From: a virus
Virus record (IMG/VR): IMGVR_UViG_3300037156_000067
Span: 1 to 26,247 of that record
DNA length: 26,247 nucleotides
Strand: one strand, 5' to 3'
Position numbers and translations under genes: made by a program. Shown piece after piece: positions 1,782 through 8,361 of the stretch (the first letter of the stretch is position 1; every line of letters starts with the position of its first letter). A model generated the notes under the pieces. The model was not told the DNA's origin. It ran no database searches and was given only the letters and a program-made list of their open reading frames with translations.

Positions 1782-2491
1782 TGCGCTATTTAGGAGGAAA
1801 GGCGAGGACATACAAAGAGATTTGTGCGTTCCTTGAGCGCATACGCTTGACGGATCAGGTATTTGTCGAGCCTTTCTGTGGTGCTTGCTGGGTCACACAA
1901 GGCATGAAGGGTGAACGCCACGCTTCAGACGCGAACGGAGCCCTCGTTGTTCTCCACAAGGCTATGCAGGACGGCTGGGAGCCGCCGAAGTGGATCAGCG
2001 AGGAAGAGTACGCCTTGTACCAGCAAACCCAGCCAACAGGCGACCCCCTCACCGCGTTTGTGGGTTTTGGGTGTTCGTTTAGCGGTAAGTGGTTCGGCGG
2101 TTACGCCCGCGACAACAGCGGGCGCAACTACGCCGCCAACGCCGCGAGCAGCCTTGTCAAGAAGAATAAGACACTCAAGGGCGTCTCCTTCACCCATCGG
2201 GGATACAGCGAGGCCGCCCCAGCCAATGCTCTGGTCTACTGCGACCCGCCTTACGCCTCGACCACAGGGTACGGTGCGGTGGGCGCCTTCGACTCTGCTG
2301 AGTTCTGGGCGACCATGAGGGCGTGGGCGAAAGCGAATACCGTGGTGGTCAGCGAATACGCGGCCCCTGACGATTTTGTTTGCGTAAAAGCGATCGGCAC
2401 GAAAACGGACATGCACACCAAAAACGGGCAGGAGGCAAGAGTGGAAAAACTGTTTATGCACGAGAGTCAAGCGGGGTTGGCTTGGATATGA
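1781..2491 (+). CDS. D12-class (Dam-like) DNA adenine methyltransferase
   Basis: At 236 aa this is close to usual for small D12-class N6-adenine methyltransferases, which transfer a methyl group from S-adenosylmethionine to adenine in DNA. The N-terminal YLGGK, motif I FVEPFCG (residues 28-34, AdoMet binding), an acidic SDANG near residue 50, and catalytic motif IV DPPY (155-158) appear in the alpha-class order. The start overlaps the previous stop (TGATG at 1779-1783) and the end overlaps the polymerase start (ATGA at 2488-2491), so it sits inside a coupled run. No restriction endonuclease gene is adjacent. Methylation of phage DNA against host restriction, or control of replication timing, are the usual roles of such orphan enzymes. 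The target site cannot be read from the sequence. Confidence 0.9.
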   Translation: MRYLGGKARTYKEICAFLERIRLTDQVFVEPFCGACWVTQGMKGERHASDANGALVVLHKAMQDGWEPPKWISEEEYALYQQTQPTGDPLTAFVGFGCSFSGKWFGGYARDNSGRNYAANAASSLVKKNKTLKGVSFTHRGYSEAAPANALVYCDPPYASTTGYGAVGAFDSAEFWATMRAWAKANTVVVSEYAAPDDFVCVKAIGTKTDMHTKNGQEARVEKLFMHESQAGLAWI

Positions 2492-3837
2492 AAAAAGAAA
2501 TCCTCTGGCTTGATTCGGAGACGTACTCCGAGACCCCGATCAAAGACGGCACTTGGAAGTACGCCGAATCGGCGGAAGTCGAGATCGTGACCTACGCTTT
2601 CGGAGGCGGTGAAGTCCTGCTGTGGGACGTGCTTTCTGGCGAACAGATGCCTGCCGACCTAAAGGCCGCGCTGGACGACCCAGAGCAGGAGATCGGCATC
2701 CACAACAGCGGATTCGACACCACGGTTTTCCGTTTCGCGCTGGGTATCGTCATCCCGCCCGAGAGGGTTTTGGACACGATGGTCCAAGCCCTCAGTCACG
2801 GCCTCCCAGGGGGCCTAGACGCTCTCTGCGACATCTTGGGCGTACCTACTGACAAGGCGAAACATAAAACCGGCAGGGCGCTGATGATGCTCTTCTGCAA
2901 GCCCCAGCCGTTCAAGCATTCAGTAGGCAAGACTTTCGGAACTCCAGCGCAGCGCAAGGCAGAGATCGAACGCCTGAAAGCCGCGTGGCCTGGTCGGGCT
3001 ACCCATCTCACGCACCCGACACAGTGGGCCGCCTACTGCGAGTACGCCAAGGCGGACATCACGGCGATGCGAGAGGTGTATAAGCGCCTGCCAAAGTGGA
3101 ACTATCCCAACCCGAACAACGGCGAGCGTAAGCTGTGGGAACTAGACCAACGGATCAACCAACGTGGCGTGGCGATCGACGTTCCGTTTGCCCAAGCGGC
3201 TGTCCGGGCTGCTGATCGCGCGAAAGCGGCGCTGGCGGTGCGCTGCCGGGAGGCGACCAACGAAGAAGTCCAGGCTGCGACGCAGCGGGACGCTGTACTG
3301 GAGCACATTTTGACGGAGTACGGTATCAGTTTGGACGATATGCGCAAGGCTACCGTTGAGAAGCTGCTTGAATCCGACATCCCCGATGATTTACGCTATC
3401 TACTTCACATCCGCCTCCAATCGTCGTCTACAGCGGTAGCCAAATACAGCACGCTGATTAAGGGCGTGTCTAGCGATGGGCGCCTGCGGGGGACGATCCA
3501 ATTCTGTGGCGCCGGCAGGACCAAACGTGAATGCCTAGCTGAGAACACGCAAGTTAAAGTTAGAACACGCTTCGGCGTGGTAATGTCGAAGCGTATCCAG
3601 GACGTAAGGTTGACTGACGAGGTTTGGGACGGCGACAGGTGGGTTGCCCACGAAGGGGTCGTATTCAGCGGGGACAAAGCTGTTATCACCCACGATGGGG
3701 TTGTTGCAACCGCAGAACATAACGTGTATATTTCAACCTCAGAATCTGTATCTCTTGGAGAGGCCAAGAGAAAAGATTTGAAACTCTGGAGGGGAAATGG
3801 CACAGATATTTTCGATATACAGGCTGACATCGCCTAG
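2488..3837 (+). CDS. polA: DNA polymerase I (family A), N-terminal part fused to split-intein N-half
   Basis: The start is ATG 2488 (MKKEILWLDSETYSE), overlapping the methyltransferase stop; a longer in-frame extension to 2380 would run through that gene. Residues 1-200 form a 3'-5' proofreading exonuclease: Exo I D9-x-E11, Exo II HNSGFD (D77) and Exo III Y186-x3-D190. Residues 205-348 begin the polymerase domain and stop inside the conserved TGR-[LW]-S motif, here RTKRE. Residue 349 is the first intein residue, Cys, in block A CLAENTQV; block B is TAEH (408-411). The intein N-half runs 101 residues to the stop at 3837. The rest of the polymerase is at 4720-6015. The protein should be inactive as polymerase until joined in trans to that half. 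Its last 41 bases overlap the endonuclease gene. Confidence 0.93.
   Translation: MKKEILWLDSETYSETPIKDGTWKYAESAEVEIVTYAFGGGEVLLWDVLSGEQMPADLKAALDDPEQEIGIHNSGFDTTVFRFALGIVIPPERVLDTMVQALSHGLPGGLDALCDILGVPTDKAKHKTGRALMMLFCKPQPFKHSVGKTFGTPAQRKAEIERLKAAWPGRATHLTHPTQWAAYCEYAKADITAMREVYKRLPKWNYPNPNNGERKLWELDQRINQRGVAIDVPFAQAAVRAADRAKAALAVRCREATNEEVQAATQRDAVLEHILTEYGISLDDMRKATVEKLLESDIPDDLRYLLHIRLQSSSTAVAKYSTLIKGVSSDGRLRGTIQFCGAGRTKRECLAENTQVKVRTRFGVVMSKRIQDVRLTDEVWDGDRWVAHEGVVFSGDKAVITHDGVVATAEHNVYISTSESVSLGEAKRKDLKLWRGNGTDIFDIQADIA
3532..3834 (+). other. Split intein, N-terminal half (101 codons)
   Basis: The half begins at Cys349 (TGC 3532-3534) of the polymerase fragment. Block A is CLAENTQVKVRTRFG, then RLTDEVWDGDRWVAHEGVV, a pattern typical of Hint domains in phage polymerases and terminases. 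Block B is DGVVATAEHNVYI with the catalytic Thr and His (TxxH). It continues through SLGEAKRKDLKLW, the region before the endonuclease slot of a continuous intein, and then stops. All residues needed for the N-S acyl shift are present. The matching C-half is at 4720-4791. Confidence 0.92.
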
Positions 3838-4738
3838 CGGGAGAACATATGTGGGGTATACCGGGCAGCCCGTTAAAGAACGCGTCCGTCAGCACGTGGT
3901 AAAAGCCCTGAACGGAATGAAACACCCTCTTTCAGCCGCTATTCGAAAATACGGATTCGACAGTTTCGTGGTCGAGGTACTTTCTACCCACGAAACTTCC
4001 GAAGAGGCGTTTGCCGAAGAAATAAGGCAGATCGCAGCACATCCGAAAGGGTATAACTTATCTCCAGGAGGGGATGGCGATTTGTTGGCCGCGAGAGAGG
4101 CCTTCGTAAAAAAGCTGGAAGATCCTGTGTGGAAAGCTGCTTACGGTAAGAAACTCTCGCTGTCCATGAAGATGAGCAAACTGCACTTGGAGAATTGGGC
4201 AAAATTCCCTGCTCGGGCGGCGAAGTGGCGCGAGGAAAACCCAGAGGAAGCCGAGAGGATTCAGAAAAAGGCCACCGAAGCGGCGAGGTTAGTGTCTACG
4301 GGTAAACCCGCGTACAACAAGGGCAAGAACCACTCTCCAGAAGCCTGCACCAAGATGGCCCTGTCGCAACGCCTTCGGTGGGATAATGCCACACCGGAAA
4401 TGCTGGAACAGAAGTCAGCCTCTTCTAAACGCGGAGCGAAAAAGCAGTGGGCACAACGTACCCCAGAACAGATAGCCGAGATAGGCAAAAAGATTTCAGA
4501 ATCGCTGAAGAGGCGAAACGCCAATCTCACACCGGATGAGCTGGCTAAGAGGGACGCTATATTGGCGGAAACTAGGAAGCACATCGACCACGACTTCCGG
4601 CTAGAGCAGCAGAGCAAATCGTTCGACGTGTACTGGACAGCGGAAAGGCGATTGGCTAAATCCGTTCAGCAAAAAGCATACAACGCGGCCTTAAAAGCCG
4701 AAAACGCGAAAGAAGAGGAATGCGAACCTACGACATAA
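3797..4738 (+). CDS. Free-standing GIY-YIG homing endonuclease with NUMOD3-like repeats
   Basis: This 313-aa protein is read in a different frame from both polymerase halves, from ATG 3797 behind a strong GGAGGGG ribosome site (3788-3794). The GIY-YIG nuclease domain fills about residues 5-95: IY (7-8), YVG (18-20), Arg29 with His33 (ERVRQH), Glu74/75 (AEEIRQI) and Asn87 (GYNLSPGGDG), matching the catalytic Tyr, Arg, Glu and Asn of I-TevI-type enzymes. Residues 174-198 (NKGKNHSPEACTKM) and 221-241 (RTPEQIAEIGKKISES) look like NUMOD3 modular DNA-binding helices, and the remainder is basic and helical. It overlaps the N-half by 41 nt and the C-half by 19 nt. Inferred role: cutting intein-less polymerase alleles to spread the cassette. 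By eye, base composition is lower in GC than the flanking polymerase. Confidence 0.92.
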   Translation: MAQIFSIYRLTSPSGRTYVGYTGQPVKERVRQHVVKALNGMKHPLSAAIRKYGFDSFVVEVLSTHETSEEAFAEEIRQIAAHPKGYNLSPGGDGDLLAAREAFVKKLEDPVWKAAYGKKLSLSMKMSKLHLENWAKFPARAAKWREENPEEAERIQKKATEAARLVSTGKPAYNKGKNHSPEACTKMALSQRLRWDNATPEMLEQKSASSKRGAKKQWAQRTPEQIAEIGKKISESLKRRNANLTPDELAKRDAILAETRKHIDHDFRLEQQSKSFDVYWTAERRLAKSVQQKAYNAALKAENAKEEECEPTT

Positions 4739-4791
4739 TAAACGCAGGGCCAAAAAACAGATTCATGGCGAATGGGCGGATCGTATCAAAC
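4720..4791 (+). other. Split intein, C-terminal half (24 codons)
   Basis: From ATG 4720 the half reads MRTYDIINAGPKNRFMANG, then RIVSN, followed by Ser25 as the +1 extein residue. Block F (YDIxNAGPxxRFxxNG) and block G (VSN|S) are clear. The penultimate residue is Ser rather than the common His, which some active split inteins (such as Npu DnaE) also show. The extein resumes as SGRLVQTQNL, the continuation of the PolA motif broken at 3531. A 24-residue C-half is shorter than the roughly 35 residues of well-known split inteins; it lacks the strand that precedes the YDI motif in Npu DnaE. Confidence 0.92.
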
Positions 4792-6015
4792 TCAGGTCGC
4801 TTGGTGCAGACACAAAATTTGGTTAAAACAGACCCTGTTTCCATAGCGAAGTGGGCCGATATCTCCTTCAAAGATCACAAGCCCGTCCGCTACCCTACCG
4901 ACGAAGAGATAGACGCGTACCTAGCTACGGGTATCGAGGCCGTGCTCCACGATTCTGCCGAATTCTTCTTCGCTGACGTGATGGGATTGTTGTCCAACTG
5001 CATCCGTGGTAGCTTCATAGCCCCTCCGGGGAGGAAGTTAGTTGTGGCCGATCTTTCGAATATCGAGGGGCGCGTTGTCGCATGGCTGGCGGACGAGGGT
5101 TGGAAGACGCAAGCCTTCCGAGATTTCGATACCCTCGCACTAGACGAGCAGGGCAATACAATACCCGACGGAAAAGGTGGTTACGAGCGGGTAGGCCAGG
5201 ATCTCTACCACGTTGCCTACGGTAAGTCTTTCGGGGTAGACCCGCGAAAGGTAACTAAGCAGCAACGGACTCTCGGTAAAGTGCTTGAGCTGGCCTGTGG
5301 CTTCGGCGGCGGGGTAGGGGCGTTCTTCGCCTTCGCCACGGCGTTCAATATCGACCTCGACGAGATGGCCGACAATGCCATTGGCGCGATCCCAATGGAG
5401 ACCCTGAAAGACTCTGAAGGGTTCATGCACTGGGCCGAGAAGAAAGGCCTGCCGAAGTATAACCTGACGGACAAGGCATACATAGTCTGCAACTCCTTCA
5501 AGATATTGTGGCGCCAAGCGCACCCTGCCGTGTCGTCGTACTGGAAAGAGCTTGGCGAAGCCTTCGCCGCCGCTATCCTCTCCCCCGGCGAGGTGATCGT
5601 CGCCCGTAAACTGAAACTCCAATTTGTTAAGGGGTGGGTACGGATTCGCCTGTCGGATGGCAGCTACCTGTGCTACCCGCAGGCGAAGATAGAAGAGAGC
5701 GGCGACCTATCTTTCATGGGGATAAACCAATTTTCGAAAAAGTGGTGCCGAATAACGACAAACGGGGCAAAACTTTTTGAAAACGTGGTCCAGGCCACCG
5801 CGCGCAATGTGTTCGTCTCGTCCTACGCCCCATCGGAAGCCGCCGGCTACGAAATTGTTATGAGAATCCATGATGAAATCGTGAGCGAAGTCCCTGATTC
5901 TGATGAGTTTACTGTCGAAGGTCTAAGCGCGATCATGTCCACCGTCCCGCCCTGGGCCACCGGACTACCGCTGGCCGCAGCCGGGTACTCCGCCACGCGA
6001 TATCGCAAAGACTGA
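4720..6015 (+). CDS. polA: DNA polymerase I (family A), C-terminal part preceded by split-intein C-half
   Basis: Of 431 residues, the first 24 are the intein C-half and 407 belong to the polymerase. Motif A is VVADLSNIEG (D111 and E116), motif B is RTLGKVLELACGFGGG (R183, K187, F195), and motif C is MRIHDEIV (HDE 384-386), so the metal-binding aspartates of the palm are intact. Joined to residues 1-348 of the first fragment it gives 755 residues, a normal length for phage PolA with an exonuclease domain. The ATG follows AGAAGAGGA with almost no spacer and lies inside the endonuclease gene's end, so initiation probably depends on coupling to endonuclease translation. No in-frame ATG, GTG or TTG precedes it after the stop at 4657-4659. 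A promoter for the next group begins right after the stop. Confidence 0.93.
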   Translation: MRTYDIINAGPKNRFMANGRIVSNSGRLVQTQNLVKTDPVSIAKWADISFKDHKPVRYPTDEEIDAYLATGIEAVLHDSAEFFFADVMGLLSNCIRGSFIAPPGRKLVVADLSNIEGRVVAWLADEGWKTQAFRDFDTLALDEQGNTIPDGKGGYERVGQDLYHVAYGKSFGVDPRKVTKQQRTLGKVLELACGFGGGVGAFFAFATAFNIDLDEMADNAIGAIPMETLKDSEGFMHWAEKKGLPKYNLTDKAYIVCNSFKILWRQAHPAVSSYWKELGEAFAAAILSPGEVIVARKLKLQFVKGWVRIRLSDGSYLCYPQAKIEESGDLSFMGINQFSKKWCRITTNGAKLFENVVQATARNVFVSSYAPSEAAGYEIVMRIHDEIVSEVPDSDEFTVEGLSAIMSTVPPWATGLPLAAAGYSATRYRKD

Positions 6016-6202: not shown

Positions 6203-6308
6203 TAAAAACCCGCCGGGGTGCGCTTGAATCAGAGGCGTGGCGGGTGTTGTTGGCCGAAGTATATGTCGGGTTGAATTTGAAATCAAGACGGATCAGAGGA
6301 GCAATAAA
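6203..6308 (+). other. Intergenic leader with hairpin and duplicated ribosome-site sequence
   Basis: ACCCGCC (6208-6214) pairs with GGCGGGT (6239-6245) around 24 nt; no T-run follows, so a terminator is doubtful. TCAGAGGAGTAATAAAA (6191-6207) recurs as TCAGAGGAGCAATAAAA (6293-6309), 16 of 17 identical; the second copy is the ribosome site of the gene at 6309, and TCAGAGG appears once more at 6229-6235. No credible coding frame fills the gap. Confidence 0.5.
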
Positions 6309-7143: not shown

Positions 7144-7598
7144 GAATAGTCAACACCGACAACTTCGGGGTTCGAGCCGTGAAGAAGCGTGAACTGCTGG
7201 AACGCGACATCGAAAAAGACCTCAACACTAAGGCCGCCAAAGCCGGGTGGTGGTCTCTTAAATTTACGAGTCCTCAGAGGCGCGCGGTCCCTGATCGCAT
7301 TTTGCTGGGCAGCAAAGACGCCGTAAACGCGGACATGCTGGCGCTGCTCAAGAGAAACCCACTGTTCAAAGGACGTGAAGTTGACCCACGAGCGTTTGAA
7401 GCTCTCGCAGCCGCTCTTGGGGATTCCGCTATGGCAGGGTGTGTGACGTTCGTCGAGTGCAAACGCCCTGGCGCGAAACCTACTGTCGCACAGGAACGGG
7501 AGCACGCGAAGCTGCGGGCCAGGGGGTTCACCGTGCTCGTGGTTGATACCAAGGAGCAGATTGATGGGTTGTACGGTGATGGAGATGATCTTGTTTGA
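7140..7598 (+). CDS. VRR-NUC domain nuclease
   Basis: This 152-aa protein has the PD-(D/E)xK arrangement of the VRR-NUC family: a helix with ERDIEKDL, then KFTSPQRRAVPDRIL (Asp52), VTFVECKRPG (Glu106 and Lys108) and a following helix TVAQEREHAKLRARGF (Gln118). Between Asp52 and Glu106 there is an extra helical insert of about 45 residues (55-100). VRR-NUC proteins are structure-specific nucleases related to FAN1 and to type III restriction-type enzymes, and in phages they stand beside PolA and SNF2 helicase genes, exactly as here. The inferred role is Holliday-junction or flap processing. The start is ATG 7140 in an ATGA overlap, and AAGGAG (7127-7132) lies just upstream. Confidence 0.88.
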   Translation: MRIVNTDNFGVRAVKKRELLERDIEKDLNTKAAKAGWWSLKFTSPQRRAVPDRILLGSKDAVNADMLALLKRNPLFKGREVDPRAFEALAAALGDSAMAGCVTFVECKRPGAKPTVAQEREHAKLRARGFTVLVVDTKEQIDGLYGDGDDLV

Positions 7599-8361
7599 AC
7601 TAATGCAAGGCGACTGTCTGGAACTGATGAAGGGGATTCCTGACGGGTCAGTCGATATGGTTTTGTGCGATCTGCCTTACGGGACAACGGATTGCAAGTG
7701 GGATACCATGATCCCTTTTGAGCCGCTGTGGGCACAGTATAAGCGGATCGTGAAAAAGAACGGGGCGATTGTTTTGTTTGGGGCGGAACCCTTTAGCAGT
7801 TCGCTACGCATGAGTGCCCTCGAAATGTTTAAATACGATTGGATTTGGTCGAAGTCTAGAGCGCTCGGCTTCACCAACGCGAAGAACAAACCGATGAACA
7901 AACACGAGATAGCCAGTGTATTCAGTGAGGGGACGGTGGCGAATAAGTCGGAGCGGCGGATGCCCTATTTCCCGCAAGGGCTTACGCCCTACGGTAAAAC
8001 AGTATCCGGTATAAAGGCGTGTAAAGCCGATTCTGCGGATGGCGGGCATAGGTTCGCGCGCCCCGGGCACAAGGAGAGTTTTGTGCGGGAGTTCACTAAC
8101 TATCCGACGCAGATAGTTGAGTTCGCAAATGACGGCGCTACCGTGCACCCCACCCAAAAACCAGTAGCCCTCTGCGAATACCTGATCCGCACCTACACCA
8201 ACGAGGGCGAACGAGTTCTCGATAATACGATGGGTTCTGGAACTACTGGCGTAGCATGTATGAACACCAACAGGCGCTTCATCGGCGTAGAACTCTCCGA
8301 AGAGTATTTCCAGATCGCCAAAAGCAGAATAGAAAAAGCAGCAGGACTTGACCTAATATGA
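7585..8361 (+). CDS. Beta-class DNA N4/N6 methyltransferase
   Basis: I choose ATG 7585 (MILFELMQGDCLELMKGIPDG) because homologues start close to the GDCLELM motif and GGTG and GGAG lie just upstream; starts at 7579 or 7564 are possible. Catalytic motif IV is DLPY (29-32), and AdoMet-binding motif I DNTMGSGTTG follows near residue 213, so the order IV then I marks a beta-class amino-methyltransferase, with a target-recognition region between. HPTQKP just before motif I is also typical of the family. It overlaps the end of the VRR-NUC gene by 14 nt and the helicase start by ATGA. No restriction partner is present. It is a second, different methyltransferase beside the D12 enzyme at 1781, and its target is unknown. 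Confidence 0.9.
   Translation: MILFELMQGDCLELMKGIPDGSVDMVLCDLPYGTTDCKWDTMIPFEPLWAQYKRIVKKNGAIVLFGAEPFSSSLRMSALEMFKYDWIWSKSRALGFTNAKNKPMNKHEIASVFSEGTVANKSERRMPYFPQGLTPYGKTVSGIKACKADSADGGHRFARPGHKESFVREFTNYPTQIVEFANDGATVHPTQKPVALCEYLIRTYTNEGERVLDNTMGSGTTGVACMNTNRRFIGVELSEEYFQIAKSRIEKAAGLDLI

Follow-up and report, generated by a model that had tools for sequence, protein, structure and literature searches.

A phage family A DNA polymerase gene fractured around a GIY-YIG endonuclease gene: comparative evidence for a probable trans-splicing split intein

The gene described here lies on a 26,247-base viral contig (IMG/VR record IMGVR_UViG_3300037156_000067, hereafter the window), where a family A DNA polymerase (PolA) is encoded in two open reading frames (ORFs) with a free-standing GIY-YIG homing-type endonuclease gene between them. 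This is the composition of a fractured gene: a conserved enzyme, a split intein and an endonuclease gene between the halves. The layout, the conservation of catalytic residues, the folds of relatives, the recurrence of the arrangement and the persistence of the split where the endonuclease is missing were observed directly. It is very probable that the polymerase is a trans-spliced protein of 755 amino acids (aa), with a mobile homing-type GIY-YIG gene nested in the intein; trans-splicing, translational coupling, DNA cleavage and homing are what we infer from those observations.

According to this interpretation, the fractured gene would give rise to two proteins, one consisting of PolA-N and the N-intein, the other of a short C-intein and PolA-C. 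The intein halves would associate to form one class 1 Hint domain, which would join TKRE to SGRLVQ in trans and so generate the 755-aa polymerase. The GIY-YIG gene would occupy the linker position of a mini-intein, with its ribosome-binding site and start codon inside N-intein codons and its stop codon inside C-intein codons, and its product would cut polymerase alleles lacking the cassette, allowing the cassette to spread. The arguments for trans-splicing are an insertion site and a tripartite layout common to many divergent phages; splicing residues that are invariant or conservatively replaced (Ser/Cys at +1); contiguous mini-inteins at exactly the same site in the relatives L007 and L010; a Hint-fold model of L007 with a low-confidence linker at the split point; polymerase halves that both remain open even with the endonuclease truncated, reduced to a remnant, absent or replaced; purifying selection on the endonuclease and the N-intein; the location of all 13 endonuclease relatives in the same PolA intein; a patchy distribution on the polymerase tree; and an analogous GIY-YIG-bearing split intein that splices in trans in vitro (PMC7891396).

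A fractured PolA with a split intein and a GIY-YIG homing-type endonuclease had been proposed in a first-pass annotation of the window, and comparative, profile and structural evidence favours that proposal. The three ORFs on which it was built are all present (2488-3837, 3797-4738 and 4720-6015). The endonuclease gene does overlap both polymerase frames, by 41 and 19 nucleotides (nt), in frame +1, and the exteins (348 and 407 aa) add up to the 755 aa claimed for the joined enzyme. The first ORF encodes PolA up to GAGRTKRE, followed by CLAENTQV and later by TAEH, and the last opens with MRTYDIINAGPKNRFMANGRIVSN, followed by SGRLVQTQNL and the polymerase motifs. Read-through is excluded by 11 in-frame stops between the halves in the N frame. 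The N-extein matched PHROG 17 ('DNA polymerase') at profile positions 668-974 (1.4e-45) and the C-extein at positions 977-1230 (4.8e-43), so that the two halves are adjacent on one family profile. The C-extein also matched PHROG 7766 (3.8e-50) and Pfam DNA_pol_A (9e-09); the match of the N-extein to DNA_pol_A_exo1 (8.7e-05) fell slightly short of that family's cut-off. The N-extein is alignable with PolA of phage BPP-1, to which the C-extein is 46.7% identical. BPP-1 PolA is an uninterrupted homologue of the kind that had been suggested for comparison; it is continuous across the junction, reading GASRTGRWAGRLFQPQN, and the insertion point is therefore exact. In scans of relatives the site is TGRW|SGR.

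The intein halves are encoded in separate ORFs, as in naturally split inteins, and carry the residues expected of a class 1 intein. Among 16 aligned N-intein loci, C1, A3, E4, D33, G34, W37, H40, A59, T60 and H63 are invariant; the nucleophile Cys1 is thus found in all 16, and T60 and H63 belong to the block B TxxH motif (TAEH in the window). At the other end, Asn is the last intein residue across loci and is followed by Ser or Cys at +1 (VSN|S in the window, VSN|C in L005 and L009). The contiguous intein of L007, to which the window N-intein is 53% identical, was modelled with AlphaFold2, using the N-inteins as the alignment. The model has a Hint fold (pLDDT 88.8), and its sole low-confidence stretch, residues 93-100, lies in the linker, exactly at the position of the split. 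Its 20 best matches in the PDB were all intein or intein-like entries, headed by the split intein gp41-1; VIA Z values were 15.6 for Mtu RecA, 14.9 for Npu DnaE, 14.1 for gp41-1, approximately 13.5 for NrdJ-1 and 12.7 for AceL NrdHF. A phmmer search of the PDB with the contiguous intein found no relative, these being detected by fold comparison alone.

The ratio of non-synonymous to synonymous substitution (dN/dS) in the N-intein was 0.06 for the pair L006/L013, most other pairs being saturated, and indicates purifying selection. This bears on the possibility that the gene is in pieces but that no splicing occurs, the polymerase consisting of two non-covalently associated subunits with the intein pieces as inert tails. 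The two ORFs each have their own start, and separate subunits are functional in other phage enzymes; the halves of NrdA of phage Aeh1, whose gene is in pieces, function without covalent joining. Such an arrangement is nevertheless improbable here, given the conservation of splicing residues at both ends in all loci, the strong purifying selection on the N-intein and the presence of the same intein in cis in two relatives. Moreover, an N-intein tail would break the TGR motif beside the active site.

It is apparent that the arrangement is not confined to the window. A degenerate pattern that spanned the junction of C-intein and extein detected 16 viral loci, a degenerate N-intein pattern 15 (2 of them new), and a scan with the endonuclease alignment 13, adding 4 new contigs, which belong to one further lineage. 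The TGRW|SGR-site intein is present in 23 viral contigs including the window, some of them near-identical pairs across datasets; 21 are split and 2 (L007 and L010) have contiguous mini-inteins. The N-intein pattern identified 7 more contigs in bacterial genomes (Clostridia/Ruminococcus/Blautia and Synergistales assemblies); the C-junction pattern had no match in the bacterial genome contigs. All recovered contigs, viral or bacterial, have the intein at this one site of PolA. Locus scans with single proteins yielded one relative (L005) with the N half as query and none when the query was the C half or the endonuclease. With tblastn, cultured phages gave no match over the TGRW|SGR-site junction; matches began at or after Cys1, and those inspected were inteins at other PolA sites. 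Two inteins per polymerase, one at this site and a contiguous one downstream, were observed in L010, L012, L018/L029/L033, L051 and L052.

These contigs also bear on two further alternatives. The window is one contig of 26 kb that lacks a near relative in culture, and an assembly or sequencing error, or an intron removed from the RNA, might be suspected. The former was rejected, being effectively refuted by 20 further viral contigs that share this layout, several of which recur unchanged in separate datasets (L015/L020 and L041/L042). The gap is occupied by conserved coding sequence, and an Rfam scan of the window gave no match to an intron, whether group I or II; either explanation has a negligible probability. 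Alternatively, insertion of the endonuclease might have destroyed the polymerase gene, leaving a defective or decaying phage. Some relatives are indeed damaged, the N frame being broken in L050 and the locus rearranged in L048 and L054. In many lineages, however, the halves are open at full length and carry polymerase motifs, and dN/dS is well under 1 where measurable, so that a dead gene is highly unlikely. In L048 (1579-2400), a TGRW|SGR-site N-intein and an endonuclease remnant are followed by the C-intein of another PolA site (HNCGYAGG), representing a deletion or an assembly chimera between two inteins.

The same GIY-YIG family is present in 18 of the 21 split viral loci, with its frame broken part-way in L045. 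L027 instead has a different GIY-YIG type with NUMOD3 repeats, L028 a GIY-YIG cut to 79 aa, and L012 (1016-1360) a 115-aa ORF, unrelated to the endonuclease and without a Pfam match, in the endonuclease position. On the bacterial contigs, L051 has a 22-codon endonuclease remnant, and L052 has none in a gap of 1.1 kb; for L051, a one-base error in a contiguous intein is an alternative reading. Both polymerase halves are open in L028, L012, L051 and L052, despite loss or replacement of the endonuclease. The split thus seems to have been retained for the sake of the polymerase, as would be expected if splicing rejoins the halves, and this argues that the split intein works independently of the endonuclease. 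The NUMOD3-type gene of L027 (8567-9357) consists of two overlapping ORFs, and a full-length relative (236 aa) is situated elsewhere on that contig.

The product of the middle ORF matched the homing-endonuclease PHROGs (PHROG 314, 3.8e-23). Residues Y8, Y18, G20, R29, H33, E75 and N87 do not vary among 12 endonuclease relatives, and the GIY-YIG motif takes the form IYR...YVG, accompanied by the invariant R29, E75 and N87. Pfam GIY-YIG scores were above the cut-off for the relatives L005 and L015 and below it for the window's own protein. The best PDB match of a structural model (pLDDT 82.6) was the catalytic domain of I-TevI, with TM scores, by target, of 0.71-0.78 (1ln0/1mk0). For L006/L013, dN/dS was 0.19, again with most other pairs saturated, which indicates purifying selection. 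All 13 of the endonuclease relatives found sit inside the TGRW|SGR-site PolA intein. The protein is probably a homing endonuclease that cuts cassette-free polymerase alleles and so spreads the cassette.

The borders of the endonuclease gene are embedded in intein codons. In the window, its start (3797) follows the TGG of the conserved LWRG motif at a distance of 8 nt, just past GGAGGGG. The duplex of GGAGGGG with the anti-Shine-Dalgarno sequence has an energy of -9.8 kcal/mol, compared with a background mean of -3.35 and a 5th percentile of -8.0. Energies of -8 or lower precede the endonuclease start in 7 of the 12 loci with this GIY-YIG family or a remnant of it, the background expectation being 5%. 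In most relatives the start codon (ATG or GTG) spans the L-W or I-W codon pair of the N-intein LW[KR]G motif (e.g. ttATGGaaagg), after coding sequence for EAKxRG that resembles AAGRGRGG; such an ATG is already present in the contiguous L010. At the other border, the endonuclease stop either overlaps the C-intein start, as ATGA or TTGA, or lies inside the YDII codons, as in the window and L014 (...CEPTT*).

As the borders are short overlaps (41 and 19 nt) of open frames, ribosomal frameshifts at both might in principle yield a single cis precursor, in the order PolA-N, intein, endonuclease, intein, PolA-C. The frame of the endonuclease relative to the N half is not conserved, however, being +1 in the window and L016 and +2 in most relatives, which speaks against programmed frameshifting. 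The C halves have their own starts, at ATGA or TTGA overlaps, and the split is kept in loci without the endonuclease. Frameshifting is therefore very unlikely.

Several observations weigh against trans-splicing of a mobile cassette as described above. The penultimate intein residue is Ser instead of His, as it also is in the efficient Npu DnaE. The ribosome-binding site of the C half in the window is very near the start, and the C halves of several relatives start with GTG or TTG, so that their expression rests on assumed coupling. Finally, across ten loci the inteins had a mean identity of 62%, the exteins 41% and the endonucleases 35%, and distances correlated with those of the exteins more closely for the endonuclease (r 0.82) than for the intein (r 0.52). 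As the endonuclease thus tracks the polymerase, recent horizontal transfer of the cassette as one unit is not claimed.

On the polymerase tree, in which the intein-less rows are a small, chosen sample, intein presence is patchy, requiring 3 changes, at least 2 of them forced by well-supported branches; the nearest row to the window is the intein-less BPP-1. The contiguous inteins of L007 and L010, at the identical site, may represent an ancestral or a re-fused cis form. L007 falls in a well-supported clade with the split L019 and L053 and retains ATGAGG at the C-intein start; re-fusion after endonuclease loss is a reasonable, if unproven, explanation.

Related systems have been described. In AceL NrdHF, a fractured gene with an intervening GIY-YIG gene, trans-splicing was demonstrated in vitro; that intein is of class 3, with Ala1 and N- and C-inteins of 98 and 48 aa, whereas that of the window is of class 1, with Cys1 and a C-intein of 24 aa, and is located in PolA (PMC7891396). 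Pseudomonas phage MIJ3 has a split PolB intein with an HNH endonuclease gene between the halves; both are phage polymerases split around an endonuclease gene, that of MIJ3 being of family B and paired with HNH (PMC6892783). The window endonuclease shares its catalytic fold and residues with I-TevI and other GIY-YIG homing endonucleases but, unlike I-TevI, has a long helical C-terminal part without a significant Pfam match and does not reside in an intron. The inteins of gp41-1, NrdJ-1 and Npu DnaE likewise have a Hint fold split near the endonuclease-insertion site, but are only 16-20% identical to the PolA intein. Their C-inteins comprise approximately 35-40 aa, in contrast to the approximately 24 aa of the window C-intein, which begins right at block F. 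In the 2009 'Fractured genes' study (Dassa et al.), eight enzyme types were reportedly broken by split inteins, likewise with a phage enzyme in two parts and an endonuclease gene between the halves; here, the enzyme is a family A polymerase and the borders of the GIY-YIG gene lie inside intein codons.

In the literature searched on split inteins in phage PolA or DNA polymerase I, with the contents of the 2009 study outside the comparison, this family was not found described, nor was any description found of the dedicated endonuclease lineage or the codon-nested borders. The novelty is narrower than the first-pass annotation suggested, a GIY-YIG gene in a split intein as such being known already (PMC7891396). 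The approximately 24-aa C-intein, the codon-nested borders and the endonuclease-free split descendants are unusual. The chances are about even that they define an undescribed family of PolA split inteins, with a dedicated GIY-YIG gene that takes its ribosome-binding site, start and stop from conserved intein codons, and that its members show a path from contiguous mini-intein through endonuclease-bearing split to endonuclease-free split and possibly, in L007, to a re-fused form.

If trans-splicing does occur, phage replication would depend on it, and the speed and temperature dependence of splicing would be part of phage fitness. With contiguous, split and endonuclease-bearing, and split-only states at one insertion site, the origin and stability of split inteins become directly testable. 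Protein ligation would also benefit from new split inteins that are fast, orthogonal and equipped with a very short C-half, and the borders suggest that a mobile gene can enter coding sequence without added intergenic DNA.

Coordinates of the features discussed (window positions unless a locus is named)
Feature	Coordinates	Strand	Basis
N-extein, family A DNA polymerase, 348 aa, 3'-5' exonuclease domain up to GAGRTKRE	2488..3531	+	PHROG 17, BPP-1 alignment
N-intein; Cys1 3532-3534, TAEH 3709-3720, LWRGN 3784-3798, stop 3835-3837	3532..3837	+	invariant residues, Hint fold of L007
GGAGGGG, ribosome-binding-like sequence for endonuclease, within W-R-G codons of N-intein	3788..3794	+	anti-Shine-Dalgarno duplex
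GIY-YIG homing-type endonuclease gene, 313 aa, frame +1 to both polymerase halves	3797..4738	+	PHROG 314, residues, I-TevI-like model
C-intein, 24 aa, MRTYDIINAGPKNRFMANGRIVSN; block F 4729-4764, terminal Asn 4789-4791	4720..4791	+	motif common to all split and contiguous relatives
C-extein, DNA polymerase, 407 aa; motif A DLSNIEGR, KxxxL..GFGGG, motif C HDE; Ser+1 at 4792, stop 6013-6015	4792..6015	+	
cis PolA inteins with overlapping HNH-type ORF	L002:3648-4298, L003:3498-4139, L022:3146-3919, L025:2288-3091, L026:2292-3050, L023:3111-3857, L033 3715-4476 (reverse complement)		

The cis PolA inteins of phages APSE-1, GB2A and Javan113 also interrupt a phage family A polymerase and overlap HNH-type genes in another frame; they differ in lying at other sites (GK|CENICQ or ELA|CGYGG) and in having an open frame that gives a contiguous protein. 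Such HNH-type ORFs, of 210-270 codons, were observed within open cis inteins at other sites in these and other cultured phages (a Gardnerella phage, MR14 and a Vibrio phage) and in L018/L033. The HNH label was assigned by eye and from the APSE-1 annotation, Pfam giving no HNH match. When the HNH ORF was reshuffled synonymously, the intein frame remained open in 0 of 2000 cases for Javan113 and the Gardnerella phage, 1 for APSE-1 and 6 for GB2A, and in 84-276 of 2000 for GC-rich cases. The overprinted endonuclease looks like a cis counterpart of the fractured PolA.

Elsewhere in the window, a gene for a D12 class N6-adenine DNA methyltransferase (1781-2491) has an ATGA overlap with the polymerase start, and a second DNA methyltransferase gene (N6/N4 type) is located at 7588-8361. 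Directly downstream of the polymerase, on the minus strand, a match to abiF RNA (Rfam RF03085) was found at 6208-6244, with 39.1 bits against a cut-off of 37.

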